Origin: Parvularcula marina
Lineage (GTDB): Bacteria > Pseudomonadota > Alphaproteobacteria > Caulobacterales > Parvularculaceae
Length of the DNA stretch: 64,000 bases
Assembly (NCBI RefSeq): GCF_003399445.1
Contig: NZ_QUQO01000001.1
Coordinates: 1,795,001 to 1,859,000 of the forward strand
Direction of reading: 5' to 3'
This document shows positions 2,352-37,554 of the stretch, piece by piece. The notes under the pieces were generated by a model that was given only the letters and a program-made list of their open reading frames with translations, did not search any database and had not been told where the DNA came from. Within the stretch, counting starts at the first letter, position 1. Each line of letters starts with the position of its first letter. The position numbers were made by a program, and so were the translations under genes.

Positions 2352-2729
2352 TCAGAGCATGGTCTCAGATGAATGCACGGAGATCAGCTTTCTGATCTTC
2401 GTGGTCATCCGCTGCTGTTCCCACTCGGAGAATTCGAACAAACCACCATATCGCATGCCGATTCGTCCACTCACAATCCTGACACGAAGGGCGAGTTCCT
2501 TGTCGATATCGACCTTATAGATCTTGCCGACTTCCAAAGGGCTCCGAAGGTGAAGCCCGATGCCCGAGAGGCTGATGTCTGTGGTTGAACCGACCGCCGC
2601 CTTATATCCATCGATATAGACCTGTACCGGCAGGTCGACGTCGTACCGGATCTCCTTGCGGCGATTGAAATCGCGCAGGGCACTCGTGCCCTGATGTTTT
2701 ACGACACCTACCATTGCTGCCCACACCAT
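2352..2729 (-). CDS. PilZ-domain protein
   Basis: A 125-residue, single-domain PilZ protein. The c-di-GMP-binding signature is present: an Arg-rich N-terminal element (NRRKEIRYDVDLP, residues about 23-35, RxxxR type) followed by a DISLSGIGL motif (D/NxSxxG) about 30 residues later on the barrel. No output domain is fused, so it probably acts as an adaptor that binds c-di-GMP and touches another protein. AAGG lies 7 nt before ATG 2729, supporting this start. It stands alone, between the agu pair and an oxygenase gene, so its partner is unknown. Confidence 0.85.
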   Translation of the reverse strand: MVWAAMVGVVKHQGTSALRDFNRRKEIRYDVDLPVQVYIDGYKAAVGSTTDISLSGIGLHLRSPLEVGKIYKVDIDKELALRVRIVSGRIGMRYGGLFEFSEWEQQRMTTKIRKLISVHSSETML

Positions 2730-2849
2730 GTTTGCGCCTTGCCGCCACCCGGCAGGACGATTGAAAAGTCACGCAACAAACACCTAAAGTTGAGAATGGC
2801 CATCGATGATTAAGATCGAGGCCACAAAATCAGTAAAACTTTACGTAGG

Positions 2850-2893
2850 CGAAACAAACTCCCGCGCCACCGACGTCTCCTGCAACTCGGGAG
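2850..2893 (-). terminator. Weak terminator-like hairpin after the 2OG oxygenase
   Basis: On the minus strand CTCCCG (2893-2888) pairs with CGGGAG (2864-2859), followed by TTTGTTTC. The stem is only 6 bp with a long loop, so this is a weak candidate. The remainder of the 196-nt gap 2730-2925 shows nothing else that I can name. Confidence 0.3.
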
Positions 2894-2925
2894 CATCAGT
2901 AACGCGCCATAAGTAGCCGGGCAGA

Positions 2926-3567
2926 CTAGCCTCGCTTGCCCTCGAACGGGTTCAGCTTTTTGAGGAAATATTGCAAACCGCCGCGGTTCTCCTTGCGGTC
3001 AAGCTCGTCCTGATTGATCAGGAAGGTCGTCTGGATGACGTACCGCTCACCGCCAAAGGGCGGATGTCCATGCCAACTCGTCTCCGACCGGGCAAAGGCA
3101 AAGACATTACCCGCCAGAGGCTCGACCTCTTCGGCGTAGTCGTCCATTGACTGATCGCCATTCAGGGCACGGATGGCCCCGCCCTCGTCCTTATCCCAGC
3201 TCTCATTCAGATAAACCAGCATGGTGCAGATCTTGCTCTCTGAATCATTATGGATGCGCCCATCGCTTTCCTTTGAAAGCTTCCGTACCGTGATCATGCG
3301 CGGCTTGTCGCGCAGCTCCAGTCCCAGCTTGTCGGAAAGGACATCCGCCAGCTCCGGCGATTGCAGATCCGAGATCAACTCGGCGAAGCGTCCATGGCTG
3401 TCGAGCTTTGACAGCGGCAGATAGCCGGTCTTGGCGATCGCCGGGTAATCGGCGCGGACACCTGCCGCCTCGTCAAGCGAAAGGGCCCCCTCCGCCACGA
3501 TATAGGTGAAGGGTTCGGTACGGGTGCGCGCCGCGCGAAGGGCTTCGAAATTCAGCATATGCGCCAT
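2926..3567 (-). CDS. 2OG-Fe(II) oxygenase
   Basis: A 213-residue non-haem iron dioxygenase of the 2OG-Fe(II) superfamily. The iron ligands are visible as His106 and Asp108 in RIHNDSES and a distal His at 166 or 168 in SWHGHPP; Arg175 in GGERYVIQ is placed to bind 2-oxoglutarate. The sheet motif MLVYLNESWDKDEGGAIR is typical of prolyl-hydroxylase-like folds. There is no signal peptide. The substrate is unknown. It is divergent from a glycosyltransferase-like gene 101 nt away, a combination often seen in surface-polysaccharide or glycoprotein modification loci, which is only suggestive here. Confidence 0.8.
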   Translation of the reverse strand: MAHMLNFEALRAARTRTEPFTYIVAEGALSLDEAAGVRADYPAIAKTGYLPLSKLDSHGRFAELISDLQSPELADVLSDKLGLELRDKPRMITVRKLSKESDGRIHNDSESKICTMLVYLNESWDKDEGGAIRALNGDQSMDDYAEEVEPLAGNVFAFARSETSWHGHPPFGGERYVIQTTFLINQDELDRKENRGGLQYFLKKLNPFEGKRG

Positions 3568-3668
3568 CTAGCGCGGCAGGGGCGGCTCGTCACTATCCCG
3601 CATTGGGCCATTCTGGCGGCACTGAAGATAGCTGGTCCCTTGCGAAGAACATTCTGGTAGAAGGACTT

Positions 3669-4448
3669 ATGACATCTCGCGGCATCGGCATATTGAGCTG
3701 GCGGGCCCATGACGGGCTCGACGACATTCTCGCCGGTTATGGCGCCGCGGGACTTTGGGACCTGTTCGACGAAAAGCTGATCTGGTTTCAGGAAGAGAGC
3801 GATGCAGACCGGGCGCTGGCCGACCGCCATGGCCTGCCCTATGGCGGCACACCCGACAATCAGGGGATATTGGGCGGCTTCCGGAACCTTGCCGCTGCGA
3901 TGAGTTCGGACATCATTCTTCTGCTCGAAAACGATCTGCCGTTGATAGAGGGGCATGAAGAAGTCGCCCGCCAGATTGAGGCCGCCACCGAGATGCTGGC
4001 CAATGGCGAAGCGCAGGTCGTACGCCTGCGGCACCGCAAGCAGCCGGGGCAGAAATTCGACACGCTGGGCAAATACCTCCGCTATCACGGCGAAGGCGCG
4101 ATGCCCTATCTCCGCCGGACGATCCGTGTGGGGAAGGCAAAGCGGCTGGCTGGCACGGCGCTTTATTCAGAAGAATATCCCGACGCCATGTTCCCTGACT
4201 TTATCCAGGCGCGCGATGACGGCGGATGGCTCATCTCATCGGCTTGCCTGCCCTGGACCAATCAATCGATCATGGTACGGCGGGAATTCCTGCTTGATGA
4301 GATCATCGCCTATGCCGAGGCGCACCCCTCCCCGCGCCGGGTCAACGGATTTCCGGATATCGAGAAGGAATGGAACACGCCGCGTTGGCGGCGCTCAGGC
4401 TGGCGGGTCGGGGCGACCGAGGGCCTGTTCACGCATGAACGGCCCTGA
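3669..4448 (+). CDS. Glycosyltransferase-like protein (unassigned family)
   Basis: A 259-residue soluble protein. The start is set at ATG 3669 because AGAAGGA (3659-3665) sits 3 nt upstream; an in-frame ATG at 3603 lacks such a site. The chain has an N-terminal strand (GIGILSWRAHDGL), a segment IILLLENDLPLIEG with an acidic END-type element where GT-A enzymes carry their metal-binding motif, and a late WTNQSIMVRREFLLDE region. These features suggest a nucleotide-sugar transferase fold, but I do not recognise a named family. It may act with the divergent 2OG oxygenase. Its 3' end is convergent with fur, 6 nt away. Confidence 0.55.
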   Translation: MTSRGIGILSWRAHDGLDDILAGYGAAGLWDLFDEKLIWFQEESDADRALADRHGLPYGGTPDNQGILGGFRNLAAAMSSDIILLLENDLPLIEGHEEVARQIEAATEMLANGEAQVVRLRHRKQPGQKFDTLGKYLRYHGEGAMPYLRRTIRVGKAKRLAGTALYSEEYPDAMFPDFIQARDDGGWLISSACLPWTNQSIMVRREFLLDEIIAYAEAHPSPRRVNGFPDIEKEWNTPRWRRSGWRVGATEGLFTHERP

Positions 4449-4454
4449 GGCCGT

Positions 4455-4874
4455 CTACTTTTTCTCTGACTCATCAAGCGGCACGCCATAAAGCTCGAGC
4501 CGGTGATCGACGAGGCGGAAGCCATGCTCCCGCGCGATCTTTTCCTGCAGCGCCTCGATCTCTTCATTGACGAATTCGATGACTTCCCGTGTACGAACAT
4601 TGATTAGGTGATCGTGGTGTTCCTCGGTCGCTTCCTCATAGCGAGAGCGTCCGTCCTGAAAATCATGCCGCTGGACGATCTCGTAATCTTCGAGGAGCTT
4701 CAGCGTACGGTACACCGTCGCAATAGAGATGCGGTCATCAAGCTCTGATGCCCGGCGGTGGATTTCCTCCACATCCGGATGATCGTCAGCCAAAGAGAGA
4801 ACGCGGGTAATGACCCGGCGTTGCTCCGTCATGCGAAGGCCTTTTTCGGCGCAAAGTTTTTCGAGGCGGTCCAT
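4455..4874 (-). CDS. fur: Fur-family metalloregulator (alphaproteobacterial Fur/Mur type)
   Basis: A 139-residue Ferric uptake regulator family protein. The winged helix (residues 10-80, with SIATVYRTLKLLE as recognition helix) and the dimerisation domain with the regulatory-site element HHDHLI (about residue 90) are intact. The CxxC that follows HHDHLI in E. coli Fur is replaced by NVRT, and the C-terminal cysteines are absent. That is typical of alphaproteobacterial Fur/Mur proteins, many of which sense manganese or act with Irr, so the metal cannot be told from sequence. It is last in the operon nfu-tsaB-rimI-fur, 9 nt after rimI. Confidence 0.9.
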   Translation of the reverse strand: MDRLEKLCAEKGLRMTEQRRVITRVLSLADDHPDVEEIHRRASELDDRISIATVYRTLKLLEDYEIVQRHDFQDGRSRYEEATEEHHDHLINVRTREVIEFVNEEIEALQEKIAREHGFRLVDHRLELYGVPLDESEKK

Positions 4875-4883
4875 TCGATGCTT

Positions 4884-5345
4884 CTAGGCGGTATCGTGAT
4901 GTTCGGGCAAGCCGGGACACCACTCCATGATCAGGGCCGGCCGGCCGCTCCCGTAATAGTCCTTGCGCTGGCCGACATTGCTGAACCCTGCGCCCGCATA
5001 AAGCTGGATCGCAGGGTCGTTATCGGTCGCCACCTCGAGGAAGACGCGCGTCACCCCGCTGGCCTCAAGACCTTTCAGCGCCTCTTCGAGGAGAAGCCTT
5101 GCATGGCCCTGACGGCGCTCGATTGCGATGACGCCCAAGGTCAGGATCTCCGCCTCATCGAGAATCTGGCGCGTCGCGATCAGCCCGCCGGGCGTGCCGG
5201 AGGCTTCCGCGATCAGAACGAGACTGCTGTCATCAGTAATCGAGTTATACCAGAACTTCTCATCCCAGACGGAGGTCTCAAAGACAGCGTGATGGAGACG
5301 GGACAGGAGGCCTTCGTCTCCGGGGCGAGCGGTACGGACACTCAT
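4884..5345 (-). CDS. rimI: Ribosomal-protein-alanine N-acetyltransferase
   Basis: A 153-residue GNAT acetyltransferase. The acetyl-CoA-binding motif A is seen as IERRQGHARLLLEEAL near residues 75-90, followed by VFLEVATDNDPAIQLYAGAGF, the conserved RimI-type motif. RimI acetylates the N-terminal alanine of ribosomal protein S18. Its ATG overlaps the tsaB stop (ATGA, 5342-5345); tsaB-rimI adjacency is common across bacteria and supports the name. Confidence 0.85.
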   Translation of the reverse strand: MSVRTARPGDEGLLSRLHHAVFETSVWDEKFWYNSITDDSSLVLIAEASGTPGGLIATRQILDEAEILTLGVIAIERRQGHARLLLEEALKGLEASGVTRVFLEVATDNDPAIQLYAGAGFSNVGQRKDYYGSGRPALIMEWCPGLPEHHDTA

Positions 5346-5965
5346 GCGCGCTTTGCCATCGGCGCCGCATCAGGCGGACGCAAATAGAGCGGATGAAGCG
5401 GGCCTGGGCTGAGCTGGGGGACAGCGGCGAGCAGAAGCCCAAGATCGGGGTACGGACCGGCAACGGGTTTCTGATCCGGCCAGACGATCTCTGCGCCACT
5501 ACCGATCAGGACGCCGCCGCCCTCGATGACCGGCGCCGTGGCGGCACGCGCCGCGTCGATATCGAGCAGGAAAGGCTGTGCCGAGCTGCCATCAAAGACC
5601 TGTCCATAGACCTGCCCGCGCCGCGCATCGATCAGGACCGCGCCCTTCGCGCCTGTCGGCGCAGAAAGCCACAACGCCTCAAGTGTGGTGATCGGCAGGG
5701 TTGGCAGACCGCGCGTCAGGGCAAAGCCGGACGCAAATGAAAGCCCGACACGCACCCCCATGAAAGAGCCCGGCCCGACGGTCACCGCAACCTGACCGAT
5801 ATCGGCAGGCGTCAGCCCGGCTTCCGCCAGCAGCTCTTCGATCATCGGCGCGAGATGCTCGGCATGGCCGACACCGATATGTCGTGTCAGGACGATATCC
5901 TTGCCGCCACCGCCAATGCCGACGCTCAACGCCGCAAGGCATGTATCTATCGCGAGTGTATGAAT
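5342..5965 (-). CDS. tsaB: tRNA threonylcarbamoyladenosine biosynthesis protein TsaB, probable ATT start
   Basis: The TsaB partner of TsaD in t6A37 tRNA modification, an ASKHA-fold protein. It contains VGHAEHLAPMIEELL and VTVGPGSFMGVRVGLSFASG, both diagnostic. The first standard start in frame (TTG 5929) would remove the essential first strand. Reading upstream in frame gives HTLAIDTCLAALSVG, the canonical TsaB N-terminus, and the only initiator placing Met two residues before LAIDT is ATT at 5965-5963, one nt after the nfu stop (TGA 5969-5967). I therefore infer a coupled, rare ATT start giving 207 residues. The function is confident; the start is inferred. Confidence 0.85.
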   Translation of the reverse strand: MHTLAIDTCLAALSVGIGGGGKDIVLTRHIGVGHAEHLAPMIEELLAEAGLTPADIGQVAVTVGPGSFMGVRVGLSFASGFALTRGLPTLPITTLEALWLSAPTGAKGAVLIDARRGQVYGQVFDGSSAQPFLLDIDAARAATAPVIEGGGVLIGSGAEIVWPDQKPVAGPYPDLGLLLAAVPQLSPGPLHPLYLRPPDAAPMAKRA

Positions 5966-5966
5966 G

Positions 5967-6551
5967 TCAGGCCACCGCTTCGACGGCAGTCACTTCGGGC
6001 ACATAATGCTTGAGCAGGTTCTCGATGCCGGATTTGAGCGTCATGGTCGAGGACGGGCAGCCCGCGCAGGCGCCTTTCATGGTCAGAAAGACGATCCCGT
6101 CGCCTTCGACAAAACGGTGAAAGACAATGTCCCCGCCATCGGCGGCCACCGCCGGGCGGACACGGGTTTCGATCAGCTCGATGATCTGCTCGACGATCTC
6201 TCGAGTCTCGCCCTCATAATCATCGGCGGATCCGGCAGTATCTGCGCCGCCCGCCGCCCCCTCATCGAGGACCGGGATACCAGCGGCGAGATAATCCGCA
6301 ATCGTCCCGAGGATCGCCGGTTTGATATGCACCCAGTCGACGCTTGGGTCTTTGGTGACGGTCACAAAGTCCCCGCCTAGATAGACACCGGTGACACCAT
6401 CGACATCGAACAGCGCCGCCGCCAGCGGTGAGGGCTTGGCGGCCTCGATCGTCGGGAAGTCGACGCCCAGCTCACCACGGCCGATCACATCCCGGCCGGG
6501 CAGGAATTTCATCGATTGCGGGTTTGGTGTATCTTCGGTCTGAATAAACAT
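5967..6551 (-). CDS. Nfu-type iron-sulfur cluster carrier
   Basis: A 194-residue protein with an N-terminal Nfu_N domain (starting MFIQTEDTPNPQSMKFLPG, residues 1-85) and a C-terminal NifU-like domain. The latter carries the cluster-binding CxxC in GACAGCPSSTMTLK near residue 165. Proteins of this layout receive 4Fe-4S clusters and deliver them to apo-enzymes such as aconitase. A low-complexity Ala/Gly linker joins the domains. It is the first gene of the operon nfu-tsaB-rimI-fur, and a purine-rich AAGAAAGAG precedes the ATG. Confidence 0.92.
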   Translation of the reverse strand: MFIQTEDTPNPQSMKFLPGRDVIGRGELGVDFPTIEAAKPSPLAAALFDVDGVTGVYLGGDFVTVTKDPSVDWVHIKPAILGTIADYLAAGIPVLDEGAAGGADTAGSADDYEGETREIVEQIIELIETRVRPAVAADGGDIVFHRFVEGDGIVFLTMKGACAGCPSSTMTLKSGIENLLKHYVPEVTAVEAVA

Positions 6552-32639: not shown

Positions 32640-33143
32640 ATGACACTCACCCTGACTGTTCTCGCCGCACTCGTCAGCACCACGACGAATTCCGCCATGA
32701 TGCAGGAGCCCGAGGCTGTTGCGAATTACCGCGACTGGACCGTCTACAAGGCCGAAGTCGGTGGCGATACAGTGTGTTATGCCGTGACCGAGCCGACCGA
32801 TCGCGACCCGGCAGGCGTTGATCACGGCGAAGTCTATTTCGCTGTTTCAACATGGAAAAGCGGCAAGGCTGCCGAGCAACCGAGCCTGATGGCCGGTTAT
32901 GACCTGCGCGAGCGGCCCAAGCCGCTGGTCCGCATCGGCTCGAACCGCTGGGACATGTTCACTGCTGGCGATGAAGCCTTCATCGAAACCGATGGCGATG
33001 AAAGCCGTCTGGTGGGTGCGATGAAGCGCGGCTCGGACATGCGGATTTCGGCGATGTCCGAGCGCGGCACCAATACCGAATATTCCTTCTCGCTCTACGG
33101 CATCACCAACGCGCTTGAACGCGCCGCACGCGAGTGCCGCTGA
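32640..33143 (+). CDS. IalB-like secreted protein
   Basis: A 167-residue exported protein resembling the invasion-associated locus B (IalB, PF06776) family. After a short signal region (about residues 1-20) comes YRDWTVYKAEVGGDTVCYAVTEPT, the usual IalB opening with one cysteine, pairing with the C-terminal cysteine in ARECR. The fold is a small beta sandwich. In free-living alphaproteobacteria it is a common periplasmic protein of unknown role. AAAAGGAG lies just before ATG 32640. Confidence 0.75.
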   Translation: MTLTLTVLAALVSTTTNSAMMQEPEAVANYRDWTVYKAEVGGDTVCYAVTEPTDRDPAGVDHGEVYFAVSTWKSGKAAEQPSLMAGYDLRERPKPLVRIGSNRWDMFTAGDEAFIETDGDESRLVGAMKRGSDMRISAMSERGTNTEYSFSLYGITNALERAARECR

Positions 33144-33240: not shown

Positions 33241-34011
33241 ATGGGTGGAATATTGGAGAAGGCTGCGCTGGCAGCCAGCCTTCCTGTAGTGTTTTTTGCT
33301 GACCATGCCGCAGCCTCGCCATGGGGCCAGCCCGATCAGGACAGCTTCCGCAGCATCAAGACCGATTACTATCGCAGCGGCGAGGATGACCGTCAGTTCG
33401 AGCAGATGGTCCTCGAGACCTATGCGGAGCAGGGGTTTTTCGACCGCTGGTCACTGGGCGGCAAGCTCGGCTCGACCTGGCAGCGGGTCGAATTCGGCGG
33501 CATGACCGATATCCGCACCGGCTTGTCGGATGCGGAAATCTTCATCCAGCGGCAAATGTATGGCACCGAAACTCAGGCTGCCGCGATCCAGCTCCTCTAT
33601 GGTTTTGAGACGACGACGCGCTCGGCACTTTTCGCTGAAGAGATCGACGGGCGCTCCGCCGCCATCGAGCTCTCAGGCTTGTGGGGCGCTGGGAACGAGG
33701 CCGCCTTCATATCGACCCGAGGCGGCTATCGCGCGAGCCTTGGTGATGACGCTGACCAGCTCAAACTCGATGTCACCTTCGGGCTTCATACCGATGAGAC
33801 GAGCATGTTCCTCCTCGACATCTACTCAGCCTTTGCCGCAGGCGATGCCGAGCCCGGCGGCGCAGAGTTTGACCTCGTCACTGTTGCGCCCTCGCTGGTC
33901 ATGCGGGCCTCTCCCCATGTGAGGATCCAGTTTGGCGCCCGGCGTGACGTGGTAGCTGATGGACTTGATGCAGGGACGGGGGGCTTTATTGCGTTGTGGG
34001 TAGAGCCATGA
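33241..34011 (+). CDS. Outer-membrane beta-barrel-like protein of the GT2 cassette
   Basis: A 256-residue exported protein with a signal peptide (cleavage likely after HAAA, near residue 25). The mature part alternates short aromatic and polar strands (DRWSLGGKLGSTWQRVEFGG, then AAIQLLYGFETTTRSALFAE, and VTFGLHTDETSMFLLDIYSAF). It ends with strand-like RIQFGARRDV and GGFIALWVEP. This pattern fits an outer-membrane barrel of about 10-12 strands. The stop overlaps the next start, making it the first gene of a coupled cassette with a processive glycosyltransferase, where it could be the export pore. Confidence 0.6.
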   Translation: MGGILEKAALAASLPVVFFADHAAASPWGQPDQDSFRSIKTDYYRSGEDDRQFEQMVLETYAEQGFFDRWSLGGKLGSTWQRVEFGGMTDIRTGLSDAEIFIQRQMYGTETQAAAIQLLYGFETTTRSALFAEEIDGRSAAIELSGLWGAGNEAAFISTRGGYRASLGDDADQLKLDVTFGLHTDETSMFLLDIYSAFAAGDAEPGGAEFDLVTVAPSLVMRASPHVRIQFGARRDVVADGLDAGTGGFIALWVEP

Positions 34012-34196
34012 TGAAGCGGCTCTGCATCTATACCCTTGTCCTGATCGGGATCGGCGCGCTCGGAGAGGCGGGAAGCAGCGCTTTTGCAGCCCTTCCGGCA
34101 GAGTTTACGGCGGCGGCCCTGCCCTGGCGGATTCTCCTTATGATTGCCCTTCCGGTCGTCGGCATCTATGGCCGACGTAGAGATGGCCGAAGATAA
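34008..34196 (+). CDS. Tiny membrane protein linking the cassette
   Basis: A 62-residue protein with two hydrophobic segments (CIYTLVLIGIGALGEA and ILLMIALPVVGIYG) and a basic tail (GRRRDGRR). Its ATG overlaps the stop of the barrel protein, and its own 3' end overlaps the start of the glycosyltransferase gene in another frame. The double overlap and the good hydrophobic pattern suggest a real small gene that couples translation. It is too small to name. Confidence 0.5.
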   Translation: MMKRLCIYTLVLIGIGALGEAGSSAFAALPAEFTAAALPWRILLMIALPVVGIYGRRRDGRR

Positions 34197-35697
34197 GCAG
34201 TTATCAGCCCTGATGGCGTTCCGAAACGAACTGCTTTCCCACGAAGGCAGCGTCTCGATGTTCCGCGCGCAGCATCAGGATCTCTTGACCCGCGGCGCAT
34301 GTGAAGCCCTCGCCGAAGCCTCGCCAGAGCTCTCCGCCAAACGCCGGTTTTCGAGGCCTCAGCTCATAACTTTATGGAGTATCGGCGTCCTGATCCTCAT
34401 TGCCGCGCTCTTCTCCTTTCGCGGCGTGCTGGTCGGGCTGAACGCGGCCTTCATTCTTTACGGGCTGGCCCTCTGCCTCTTCCGACTATCGCTGGTCGCC
34501 AATATCATCCGCGAGGCACGGCCCCGGCGGATCCGCAATACCGAGCCCCTGAGCGATGACGCCCTACCGTTGATCACGATCCTCTGTCCTCTTTACAAGG
34601 AGGAAGAGAGCCTACCCAATCTGCTCGGCGCGCTCGACCGGCTCGATTACCCGCGCGAGAAGCTCGATATCAAGATCGTTCTCGAAGCCGATGACGAGTT
34701 CACCCGCAAGGCCGCGGCCAAAGCCTGCAAGCCCGGCAAATATGACGTGGTCATCGTTCCGGAAGGGCAGCCCAAGACCAAGCCAAAGGCGTGCAACTAC
34801 GCCCTCTGGAGCGCGCGCGGTGAATACATCGTCATTTATGATGCAGAAGACCGTCCGGCCCGGGATCAATTACGCCGCGCCGCCGAAGCCTTTGCCGTCC
34901 TGCCGCCGACAGTTGCCTGCCTTCAGGCACGGCTCAATTACTATAACCGTGAGGCCAGCTGGCTGACGCGCATCTTTGCCGCCGAATATGCCTATATCTT
35001 CGATATCCTGCTGCCCGGCCTGACATCGCTCGGCGCACCGCTGCCACTCGGCGGCACCTCCAACATCTTCCGCACAGAGGCCCTGCTTGCGATTGGCGGC
35101 TGGGATCCGCACAATGTCACCGAAGACGCCGATATCGGCATGCGGCTGGCCGCCAAGGGCTACACCAGCCGGATGCTGGATACGACGACGCTGGAAGAAG
35201 CAACCAACGGCCTTGGGGCCTGGTTCCGTCAACGGACGAGATGGATCAAGGGCTATATGCAAAGCTGGGCCGTACATTCGCGATATCTGCCGAAGAGCCC
35301 GGCCCATGCACTCACCCTGCATCTGGTCATTGGCGGCGTGATCGTCGCCTCACTGTTCAACCCGATCTTCTGGGTGCTGTATATTGTCTGGCTGAGCGGG
35401 ATTGTCGATCTCGACTGGCTGTTCCCCGCTCCCCTTGGCGCGCTTGCGACCATCGGTTTTCTTGCCGGCAATCTGATCCTTCTCTGGCTCTATATGCTCG
35501 CGCCGATGCGGCGGCGCTGGCACGATCTTGTCCCCTACGCCCTGACCTCGCCCGCCTATTGGGTGCTGCAGATGGCCGCCGGATATCGCGCGGCATGGCA
35601 GTTCATCACGAGCCCACATTACTGGGAGAAGACCGAGCACGGCGCCGGGCTCGCCCATGAAGAGATCGCCGAGCGCGACCTTGAGGCGAGCACATGA
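34168..35697 (+). CDS. Processive family-2 glycosyltransferase (cellulose synthase-like)
   Basis: A 509-residue membrane glycosyltransferase. Two helices near residues 70-120 precede the GT-A domain, opening PLITILCPLYKEEESLPNLL. The UDP-sugar motif is YIVIYDAEDRP (DxD type), the acceptor motif TEDADIG, and the processive-enzyme signature QRTRWIKGYMQSW. Further helices follow at the C-terminus. This set defines polymer-forming enzymes such as cellulose or hyaluronan synthases; the sugar is unknown. The start is uncertain (34144, 34168 or 34183), since no clear Shine-Dalgarno is present. It overlaps the next gene by 4 nt. Confidence 0.85.
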   Translation: MADVEMAEDKQLSALMAFRNELLSHEGSVSMFRAQHQDLLTRGACEALAEASPELSAKRRFSRPQLITLWSIGVLILIAALFSFRGVLVGLNAAFILYGLALCLFRLSLVANIIREARPRRIRNTEPLSDDALPLITILCPLYKEEESLPNLLGALDRLDYPREKLDIKIVLEADDEFTRKAAAKACKPGKYDVVIVPEGQPKTKPKACNYALWSARGEYIVIYDAEDRPARDQLRRAAEAFAVLPPTVACLQARLNYYNREASWLTRIFAAEYAYIFDILLPGLTSLGAPLPLGGTSNIFRTEALLAIGGWDPHNVTEDADIGMRLAAKGYTSRMLDTTTLEEATNGLGAWFRQRTRWIKGYMQSWAVHSRYLPKSPAHALTLHLVIGGVIVASLFNPIFWVLYIVWLSGIVDLDWLFPAPLGALATIGFLAGNLILLWLYMLAPMRRRWHDLVPYALTSPAYWVLQMAAGYRAAWQFITSPHYWEKTEHGAGLAHEEIAERDLEAST

Positions 35698-36677
35698 GCC
35701 TGACCACTATGCAGCAGCGCAGTTTCTGGCAATGGCCGGAGACCCAAGGCTTCGCCATTGTCCTTGCCATGGCGGGCGCCTTGGCGCTGACCGGGTTTGA
35801 GGACTGGACCGCCCATGTCTTTCATGGCCGCCTGACCCTGCTTGAAGGCGAGACGGGCTTTGCGCCCGGCATGGATCTGACCTTGTGGTTCGGACGGTTG
35901 CTCGCAAGCCTGCCGGGCACATCGGAGGCCGCAGGCCTATCGATTGCCACCGCCATGGCCGTGCCGATCATTGGTCTGACAAGTTTCCTGACAGCACCCA
36001 AGCGCCCCGGGCGGCTGATGCGCGCGCTGCTTCTATGCACCCACCCCCTGACGCTTGCCCTTGTTCTTGGCGGCGCCGGATGGGCCGTGATCGGATTATA
36101 TGTGTTGTGGCGGGCCCTCGCAGCATTACCTCGGCGCAGGCCGCATCAGGGCATGGCGGGATCGGGCCTCGCCATTGCCTTTGCGTGGCTGGCCGTCCCC
36201 GGCTTCAGCGCCTTCCTGCTGCCGCTCGGCGCGACCCTGTGGCTCTGCGCCCCGCGGCATATGCAAAAGCGTTTCATGCTCTCTTATTATCTTGCGCTGT
36301 TTGCGCCCGTGGCGATGCTGGCCGGCGCCAATGCCTATGCCGCATGGGCCTTCGGGCTTGAATGGGTGGAGACCCCGCTGACCGCGCCGATGACCTCCGG
36401 CCTGCCGGTCGCGATCCTCTTCTCTCTTTGCGCGACGATCCTGAGTGGACCCGGCCTGATGCGGATCACCTCGATGTCAGGCACCGCAACGCGCCTTGCC
36501 GCCCTCGTCGCCAGCGCCTTTGCCGCAACCGCCACAGGCGCCGATCCGCTGGCCGCCGCCGCGATGGCCGCCACCGCGCAATATGCCCTTGCCGCCCGGC
36601 GGGGCGAGCCCAGCATGCTCAGCGTCCTGTCCTTTGCAGGCGGCGCGGCAGTCGTGATAGGCCTCGGCGCGCTTTAG
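35694..36677 (+). CDS. Polytopic membrane protein of the GT2 cassette, unknown
   Basis: A 327-residue protein with roughly eight to nine hydrophobic helices and short loops. No catalytic motif or known family is evident. It starts inside the end of the glycosyltransferase gene (ATGA overlap), so it belongs to the same translation-coupled cassette. A flippase, polymerase or modification role for the product of that enzyme is possible but is inference from position only. dapF follows 13 nt later. Confidence 0.65.
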   Translation: MSLTTMQQRSFWQWPETQGFAIVLAMAGALALTGFEDWTAHVFHGRLTLLEGETGFAPGMDLTLWFGRLLASLPGTSEAAGLSIATAMAVPIIGLTSFLTAPKRPGRLMRALLLCTHPLTLALVLGGAGWAVIGLYVLWRALAALPRRRPHQGMAGSGLAIAFAWLAVPGFSAFLLPLGATLWLCAPRHMQKRFMLSYYLALFAPVAMLAGANAYAAWAFGLEWVETPLTAPMTSGLPVAILFSLCATILSGPGLMRITSMSGTATRLAALVASAFAATATGADPLAAAAMAATAQYALAARRGEPSMLSVLSFAGGAAVVIGLGAL

Positions 36678-36690
36678 GATCACCGCCCCC

Positions 36691-37554
36691 ATGTCCGACC
36701 TTCCGCCCGCCCTTGCCGGTCTTGATGGCTGCCCGTTCTGGCAGATGGACGGCGCGGGCAATGATTTTGTCATTGTCGATTTGCGCCGGGGCGGCGAGCT
36801 GACACGTGAAGCCGCGCAATATCTCGGCGACCGCGAAGGCCCGTTCGGCTGTGACCAGATCATAGGCCTTGTCCGCGACAAAACCGGCGGCACAACGATG
36901 ATCATCTATAATACCGATGGCAGCTTTGCGGGTGCCTGCGGGAATGCCTCGCGCTGTGTCGGCTGGCTCCTGATGGAGGAGACAGGCGAGAACGAGCTGA
37001 CTTTTGGCTCACCGTCAGGTCCGCTTCATGCCACCCGCGCAGGCGAGGCCCAGATTACGGTTGATATGGGTGAACCAAAGCTCGGCTGGGAAGATATTCC
37101 GCTGGCGGAAGAGATGAATGATACCCGCTATATCGACATCAAGCTCGGCCCCATCGACAAGCCGGTCCTGTGGGGGCCGTCCGCCGTCAGCATGGGCAAT
37201 CCGCATTGCGTCTTTTTCGTGGAAGACGTGGACACCCAGGCGCTCGACCGCTTCGGGCCGATGATCGAGCATCACCCGCTCTATCCTGAAGGCGCCAATG
37301 TCTCGGTCGCCCAAGCCGTGGATCGGGAGACCCTCCGCGTGCGCACATGGGAGCGCGGCGTGGGTCTCACCCAAGCCTGCGGGACCGCCGCCTGCGCCGC
37401 CCTCGTCTCTGCCGTGCGGCGGCGCCTGACCGACCGTAAAGCCACTGTTCACATGCCGGGCGGCGCGCTGATCATCGAATGGGATGAGGCGACGAACCAC
37501 GTCTTCAAGACCGGGCCGATCAGGCTGTCCCGGCAGGGGGTTTTCGGCGATTAG
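36691..37554 (+). CDS. dapF: Diaminopimelate epimerase
   Basis: A 287-residue DapF that interconverts LL- and meso-diaminopimelate for lysine and peptidoglycan. It has the N-terminal FWQMDGAGNDFVIVDLR and the two catalytic cysteines in FAGACGNASRCVGW (first, near residue 86) and LTQACGTAACAA (second, near residue 231). GNPHCVFFVEDV is also conserved. It lies immediately after the glycosyltransferase cassette; the common alphaproteobacterial order dapF-mtaB-ftsY-yciB is broken here only by the gdx insertion. Confidence 0.96.
   Translation: MSDLPPALAGLDGCPFWQMDGAGNDFVIVDLRRGGELTREAAQYLGDREGPFGCDQIIGLVRDKTGGTTMIIYNTDGSFAGACGNASRCVGWLLMEETGENELTFGSPSGPLHATRAGEAQITVDMGEPKLGWEDIPLAEEMNDTRYIDIKLGPIDKPVLWGPSAVSMGNPHCVFFVEDVDTQALDRFGPMIEHHPLYPEGANVSVAQAVDRETLRVRTWERGVGLTQACGTAACAALVSAVRRRLTDRKATVHMPGGALIIEWDEATNHVFKTGPIRLSRQGVFGD

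Follow-up and report, generated by a model that had tools for sequence, protein, structure and literature searches.

A probable reduced XagB/Sfz2-type exopolysaccharide synthase and exporter in Parvularcula marina

Synthases of the XagB/Sfz2 type have been linked to biofilm formation and to the stalks of iron bacteria. The extra biofilm formed by an rpfG mutant of Xanthomonas oryzae pv. oryzicola needs both xagA and xagB (PMC3609779), and in Ferriphaselus the cluster runs in the order bcsB-xagB-xagC-xagD, with no xagA-like gene reported (PMC4643136). Within the sfz cluster, sfz1 encodes a BcsB-like protein and Sfz2 is an EpsE_N(MshEN)-GT2 protein with TED and QxxRW motifs (PMC8250860); the MshEN domain of NfrB has been shown to be a c-di-GMP receptor (PMC8669469). 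No outer-membrane exporter has been assigned in the published stalk clusters.

The window analysed here, the whole 64,000-nucleotide stretch of P. marina DNA, contains a cassette of four genes that probably represents a reduced exopolysaccharide synthase and exporter of the XagB/Sfz2 type, in which a beta-barrel would provide the exit and the synthase would be free of direct control by c-di-GMP. The features are:

33241..34011, + strand: 12-stranded outer-membrane beta-barrel, 256 aa, with a signal peptide and a mature start at about ASPWGQ; proposed outer-membrane exit pore.
34008..34196, + strand: protein of 62 aa in which two hydrophobic segments precede a basic tail (..LPWRILLMIALPVVGIYGRRRDGRR); candidate for a small subunit that accompanies the synthase in the inner membrane.
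34171..35697, + strand: processive-type GT2 synthase, XagB/Sfz2-like (PF13632, motifs, tree), without MshEN, 508 aa from the ATG at 34171.
35694..36677, + strand: membrane protein of polytopic type (327 aa); a shortened form of the ~490-aa, possibly GT-C-like protein found 3' of the GT2 in fuller loci (hhalign).
36691..37554, + strand: dapF, a housekeeping neighbour, 13 nt 3' of the polytopic gene and syntenic family-wide; regarded as lying outside the system.

The initial annotation described four ORFs at 33241-36677 joined by overlaps of at least 4 nt, and both the ORF calls and the recurring gene order confirm this. The barrel stop and the start of the 62-aa ORF share an ATGA, as do the GT2 stop and the start of the polytopic protein, and the 62-aa ORF overlaps the GT2 by 26 nt if the latter starts at ATG 34171 (TTG 34144 and ATG 34186 are the other candidate starts). 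The order barrel - GT2 - dapF is seen again in relatives, so the arrangement is not due to chance. A scan for sigma-70-type promoters returned three sites, all weak and none of them 5' of the barrel, which on its upstream side adjoins an IalB-like gene (PF06776; window 32640-33143) that is syntenic in the genus and not known to be connected with the cassette.

The GT2, a single-copy gene in its own genome, matches PF13632 (97 bits) and carries EADD at residue 172, DAED at 224, TEDAD at 317 and RQRTRW at 353, so that the DxD, TED and QxxRW motifs attributed to it are all located, DxD as the variant DAED. All 30 Caulobacterales sequences checked, 23 from Parvularculaceae and seven from elsewhere in the order, retain these motifs. 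The nearest named homologue in the genome contig collection is from P. dongshanensis (54% identical); homologues occur in 124 of 150 Caulobacterales genomes (E <= 1e-60), and loci were also recovered from Aquificota, Nitrospinota, Cyanobacteriota and Bacillota. Scores fell far below the equivalog cut-offs for both CelA/BcsA (TIGR03030; 72.7 bits against 699) and PgaC/IcaA (63.4 bits against 422). The protein combines TED and QxxRW with full-length similarity to the XagB/Sfz2 type, as defined here from fuller homologues and the published motif description rather than from a named XagB sequence; a plasmid tblastn search for a record annotated XagB returned only matches labelled generic 'glycosyltransferase'. 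The GT2 belongs to a widespread family that fits the published XagB/Sfz2 synthases, the name resting on agreement with their description. Although the cassette had been put forward as one for which no known name could be given, both its GT2 family and the fuller locus correspond to xag and sfz/sfb clusters in the literature (PMC3609779; PMC4643136; PMC8250860). As its motifs and family suggest, the enzyme would bind nucleotide sugar in the cytoplasm, polymerise it processively and push the chain through its own transmembrane part.

The AlphaFold model of the first protein is confident (pLDDT 91) and has 12 long strands, in line with the outer-membrane-like barrel originally proposed. Its nearest folds are FapF, COG4313, NalP, NanC and KdgM (VIA Z of 22.6 for FapF, 22.2 for the COG4313 channel and ~20 for NanC/KdgM), and its profile gives a weak match to 4rl8 (COG4313; E 1.1e-5). 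With an iterated profile the barrel family was found in 73 of 111 GT2 loci (a few genomes being counted twice), its place being 5' of the GT2 in Parvularculaceae and, in other groups, mostly 2-5 kb 3' of it, and the homologous ~270-aa 12-stranded barrel near the MshEN-GT2 loci was matched at E 7.7e-68. The same iterated profile found no barrel at any of the four Paenibacillus GT2 loci, as expected of an outer-membrane part in bacteria with one membrane. No TPR scaffold or lipoprotein lies beside the barrel. A linear polysaccharide chain would leave the cell through this pore, given its predicted fold and its genetic association with the GT2.

That association extends across the order, as the initial annotation's reading supposed it would in other genomes. 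At thresholds of E <= 1e-5 for the barrel and E <= 1e-60 for the GT2, 104 of the 150 Caulobacterales genomes hold both genes, 20 the GT2 only, six the barrel only and 20 neither (Fisher p = 3.3e-9, a value that ignores kinship apart from a genus-level count and so overstates independence), giving the barrel in 110/150. By family, co-occurrence was 26/26 versus 1/5 in f1 and 21/21 versus 0/7 in f3. In f3 the two genes are on different contigs or ~10 kb apart, so close linkage does not explain their co-occurrence. Joint absence was seen in about nine genera (g2, g5, g7, g15, g17, g19, g25, g27 and g28). A relaxed search reduced the barrel-only genomes to three and, in many genomes scored as GT2-only, brought up weak matches to the barrel; most of these genomes belong to family f2, in part of which the GT2 is present and the barrel weak or undetected. 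The pore and synthase genes are therefore kept or lost together across the order, even where they stand apart, and with the GT2 motifs and the barrel model this supports the idea of a compact synthase plus pore. In two loci of families f3 and f4 (L124 and L126) the unlinked barrel directly follows a class II aldolase-like gene, near RND-efflux genes. In genome G134 (L133:7440-8330) the barrel adjoins dapF with no close GT2 there; a distant GT2 (30% identity) lies elsewhere.

With 12 strands the barrel is narrow next to the exporters of cellulose, PNAG and alginate, which have 16-18. Its small size for polymer export, the closeness of the oligosaccharide-uptake porins NanC and KdgM to its fold, and the presence of non-processive families such as MftF, at low score, among the GT2 profile scores would all fit a GT2 whose product is not a secreted polymer but an envelope glycolipid or short glycan, with the barrel serving some other envelope task such as oligosaccharide uptake or recycling in the manner of KdgM and NanC. 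This seems unlikely to us, as TED and QxxRW are invariant in the Caulobacterales sequences, the nearest characterised enzymes are PgaC, cellulose synthase and NfrB, and deletion of xagA and xagB abolishes the extra biofilm of the rpfG mutant (PMC3609779).

If the cassette is indeed a reduced synthase and exporter, the fuller loci indicate what has gone. In most Alphaproteobacteria outside Parvularculaceae these run from a BcsB-like gene (~640 aa) and a GT2 with MshEN at its N-terminus (~630 aa) through a polytopic protein of ~490 aa to a response-regulator/GGDEF gene and a ~270-aa barrel. The first gene of one such locus (L044) matches the BcsB family (PF03170; 39.8 bits, cut-off 21), and the GT2 of another (L084) carries MshEN (50.9 bits). 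An N-terminal HMM built from 62 fuller homologues (244 positions) recovers residues 487-637 of E. coli NfrB, its MshEN region (E 8.6e-19). The N-terminus of the window GT2 aligns to positions 142-221 of this HMM only, beyond the MshEN part, and has no Pfam match to MshEN, whereas the GT2s of L008 and L013 begin to align at position 67-69 and, keeping the second half of the domain, stand between the two forms. Judged from these alignments the loss of MshEN is graded, with just the end of the region left in the window. The initial annotation's suggestion of c-di-GMP dependence is accordingly unlikely to hold at the synthase, which would not be switched directly by c-di-GMP because the domain is missing. 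Nor does the PilZ gene of the window offer the link that had been suggested: this PilZ-motif ORF (2352-2729, minus strand) lies ~31 kb from the cassette, nothing ties it to the four genes, and a direct c-di-GMP connection through it was rejected.

The cassette does lack BcsB/C/Z and AlgE/X, as stated. Profile searches found no BcsB-like gene at the window locus or in its own genome; this null came without a separate positive control, but the fuller profile does detect the gene in related genomes. That profile matches 8 of the 150 Caulobacterales genomes and none in the window's family. Eight genomes of family f5 have an unlinked BcsB-like gene; in the one such locus read (L129:5479-9475) it stands beside a different GT2 (656 aa, opposite strand, weak chitin-synthase match), and it was therefore rejected as a partner of the cassette and left out of this system. 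A quick tree, with several long branches and an arbitrary root, places the Parvularculaceae GT2s between the fuller type and the GT2s that stand unlinked in other Caulobacterales, and therefore MshEN and the BcsB-like gene were likely lost along the Parvularculaceae line, although, the root being arbitrary, the BcsB-like gene may less probably have been gained in the opposite direction.

The 62-aa protein has hydrophobic segments at 5-23 and 35-53, consistent with the two-helix protein first described, and gave no match to PgaD in Pfam. ORFs of the same form (a hydrophobic start, often PW, a hydrophobic stretch and a basic tail; 43-92 aa) occupy the same place in nine of ten genomes of the genus and in three genomes of genus g5, and none was found in other genera of the family. 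A string LPWR, picked out by eye, is common to the 62-aa protein and the MshEN region, and prompted the idea, not adopted here, that the small protein derives from that region. The 62-aa protein probably lies in the inner membrane next to the GT2, where it may take, as a small subunit with a stabilising role, the position that the BcsB membrane tail or PgaD has elsewhere. A sharper version of the preferred explanation, compatible with it, would make it a true BcsB cut down to a signal peptide and C-terminal membrane tail, and the cassette a minimal BcsAB-like machine. Its gene lies directly 5' of the GT2, a position that BcsB-like genes take in many fuller loci, the PW-hydrophobic-basic tail pattern is shared, and the small protein of the relative L006 scores 13.1 bits against a BcsB-tail HMM (best control 5.4). 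The window protein itself has no match to the tail HMM, however, the profile-profile probability is 3.3 (not significant), and in some fuller loci it is the barrel rather than the BcsB-like gene that stands directly 5' of the GT2. Homology to the BcsB tail was thus rejected for the window protein, whose likeness to it is, in these comparisons, one of form only, and we hold the sharper version to be quite improbable.

For the polytopic protein, an HMM from the fuller ~490-aa proteins clearly matches Parvularculaceae relatives (L006 at E 2.8e-11, L005, L002, L008 and L007) but the window protein weakly (E 0.04; control 0.23), while the two families align strongly profile to profile (hhalign probability 98.2, E 3.5e-14), so the homology rests on the family and not on the window protein alone. 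The fuller proteins continue for ~130 C-terminal residues that the window protein does not have. The window protein models poorly (pLDDT 69), and Foldseek gave nothing significant, but the top VIA rows are nearly all GT-C enzymes (Z 8.4-6.3); a PDB profile search with the family found no match. In several relatives dapF follows the GT2 with no gene in between, so the polytopic protein is not core; it would be a truncated GT-C-like accessory, lost in many relatives and not essential.

Some relatives have an interrupted GT2, with intact copies in other genomes. In three Parvularculaceae loci (L130:3090-6754, L131 ~2780-6160 and L132:2978-6621) the gene is broken by an element with a transposase-like ORF of 325-340 aa, with inverted ends of 23-26 nt in L130 and L132; the break falls at the same codon in L130 and L131 (after NWLTR, near window residue 267) and near residue 301 in L132. 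The GT2 matches of G063 and G117 are split near residues 291-320.

Interruption implies that the product is dispensable in those relatives, which counts against the preferred explanation. The missing BcsB-like gene and MshEN domain, the shortened polytopic protein, the IS-type insertions and the absence of one or both genes from some genomes might suggest that the cassette is a decaying remnant of an xag/sfz-type locus, scarcely or no longer functional in the lineage. This is nevertheless very improbable, since the frames are open, the translational overlaps kept, the catalytic motifs invariant and the barrel fold confidently modelled, and barrel and GT2 persist together in 104/150 genomes despite deep divergence.

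A barrel kept or lost with its synthase is a concrete candidate for the outer-membrane exit, and the graded loss of MshEN and the BcsB-like gene provides naturally reduced forms in which to study the minimal needs of a processive synthase. More tentatively, and with some doubt on our part, the barrel family might be a general, so far unrecognised outer-membrane exporter of XagB/Sfz2-type synthases, and the Parvularculaceae cassette the smallest complete machine of this kind, with a ~60-aa protein replacing BcsB and c-di-GMP control at the synthase removed.

Compared with BcsABC, the window GT2 has a BcsA-like core, and a BcsB-family protein is present in the fuller loci, but the window lacks the PilZ domain, BcsB, BcsC and BcsZ and scores far under the CelA cut-off. 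PgaABCD likewise combines a barrel, a GT2 and a small two-helix protein, and of the E. coli proteins set against the window GT2, PgaC matches best (25% identity across 243 residues), whereas the window has no PgaB deacetylase and its barrel no TPR part. NfrBA-YbcH of E. coli also pairs a GT2 with an outer-membrane protein, and NfrB carries MshEN as the fuller homologues do, in reversed domain order; NfrA, however, is a 990-aa TPR barrel (window barrel profile E 0.07, not significant), and the window shows neither MshEN on its GT2 nor a TPR barrel of the NfrA type. FapF and COG4313 (4rl8) share the barrel fold at Z ~22 and 6-10% identity, but FapF exports an amyloid protein and COG4313 is a channel of another kind. 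The full xag/sfz form has MshEN(EpsE_N)-GT2, with a BcsB-like neighbour in sfz/sfb, whereas the window is without both, its polytopic gene is truncated and its barrel is placed first; likened by their published description, xagABCD of Xanthomonas and sfz/sfb of Mariprofundus and Ferriphaselus share with the window a GT2 bearing TED and QxxRW.
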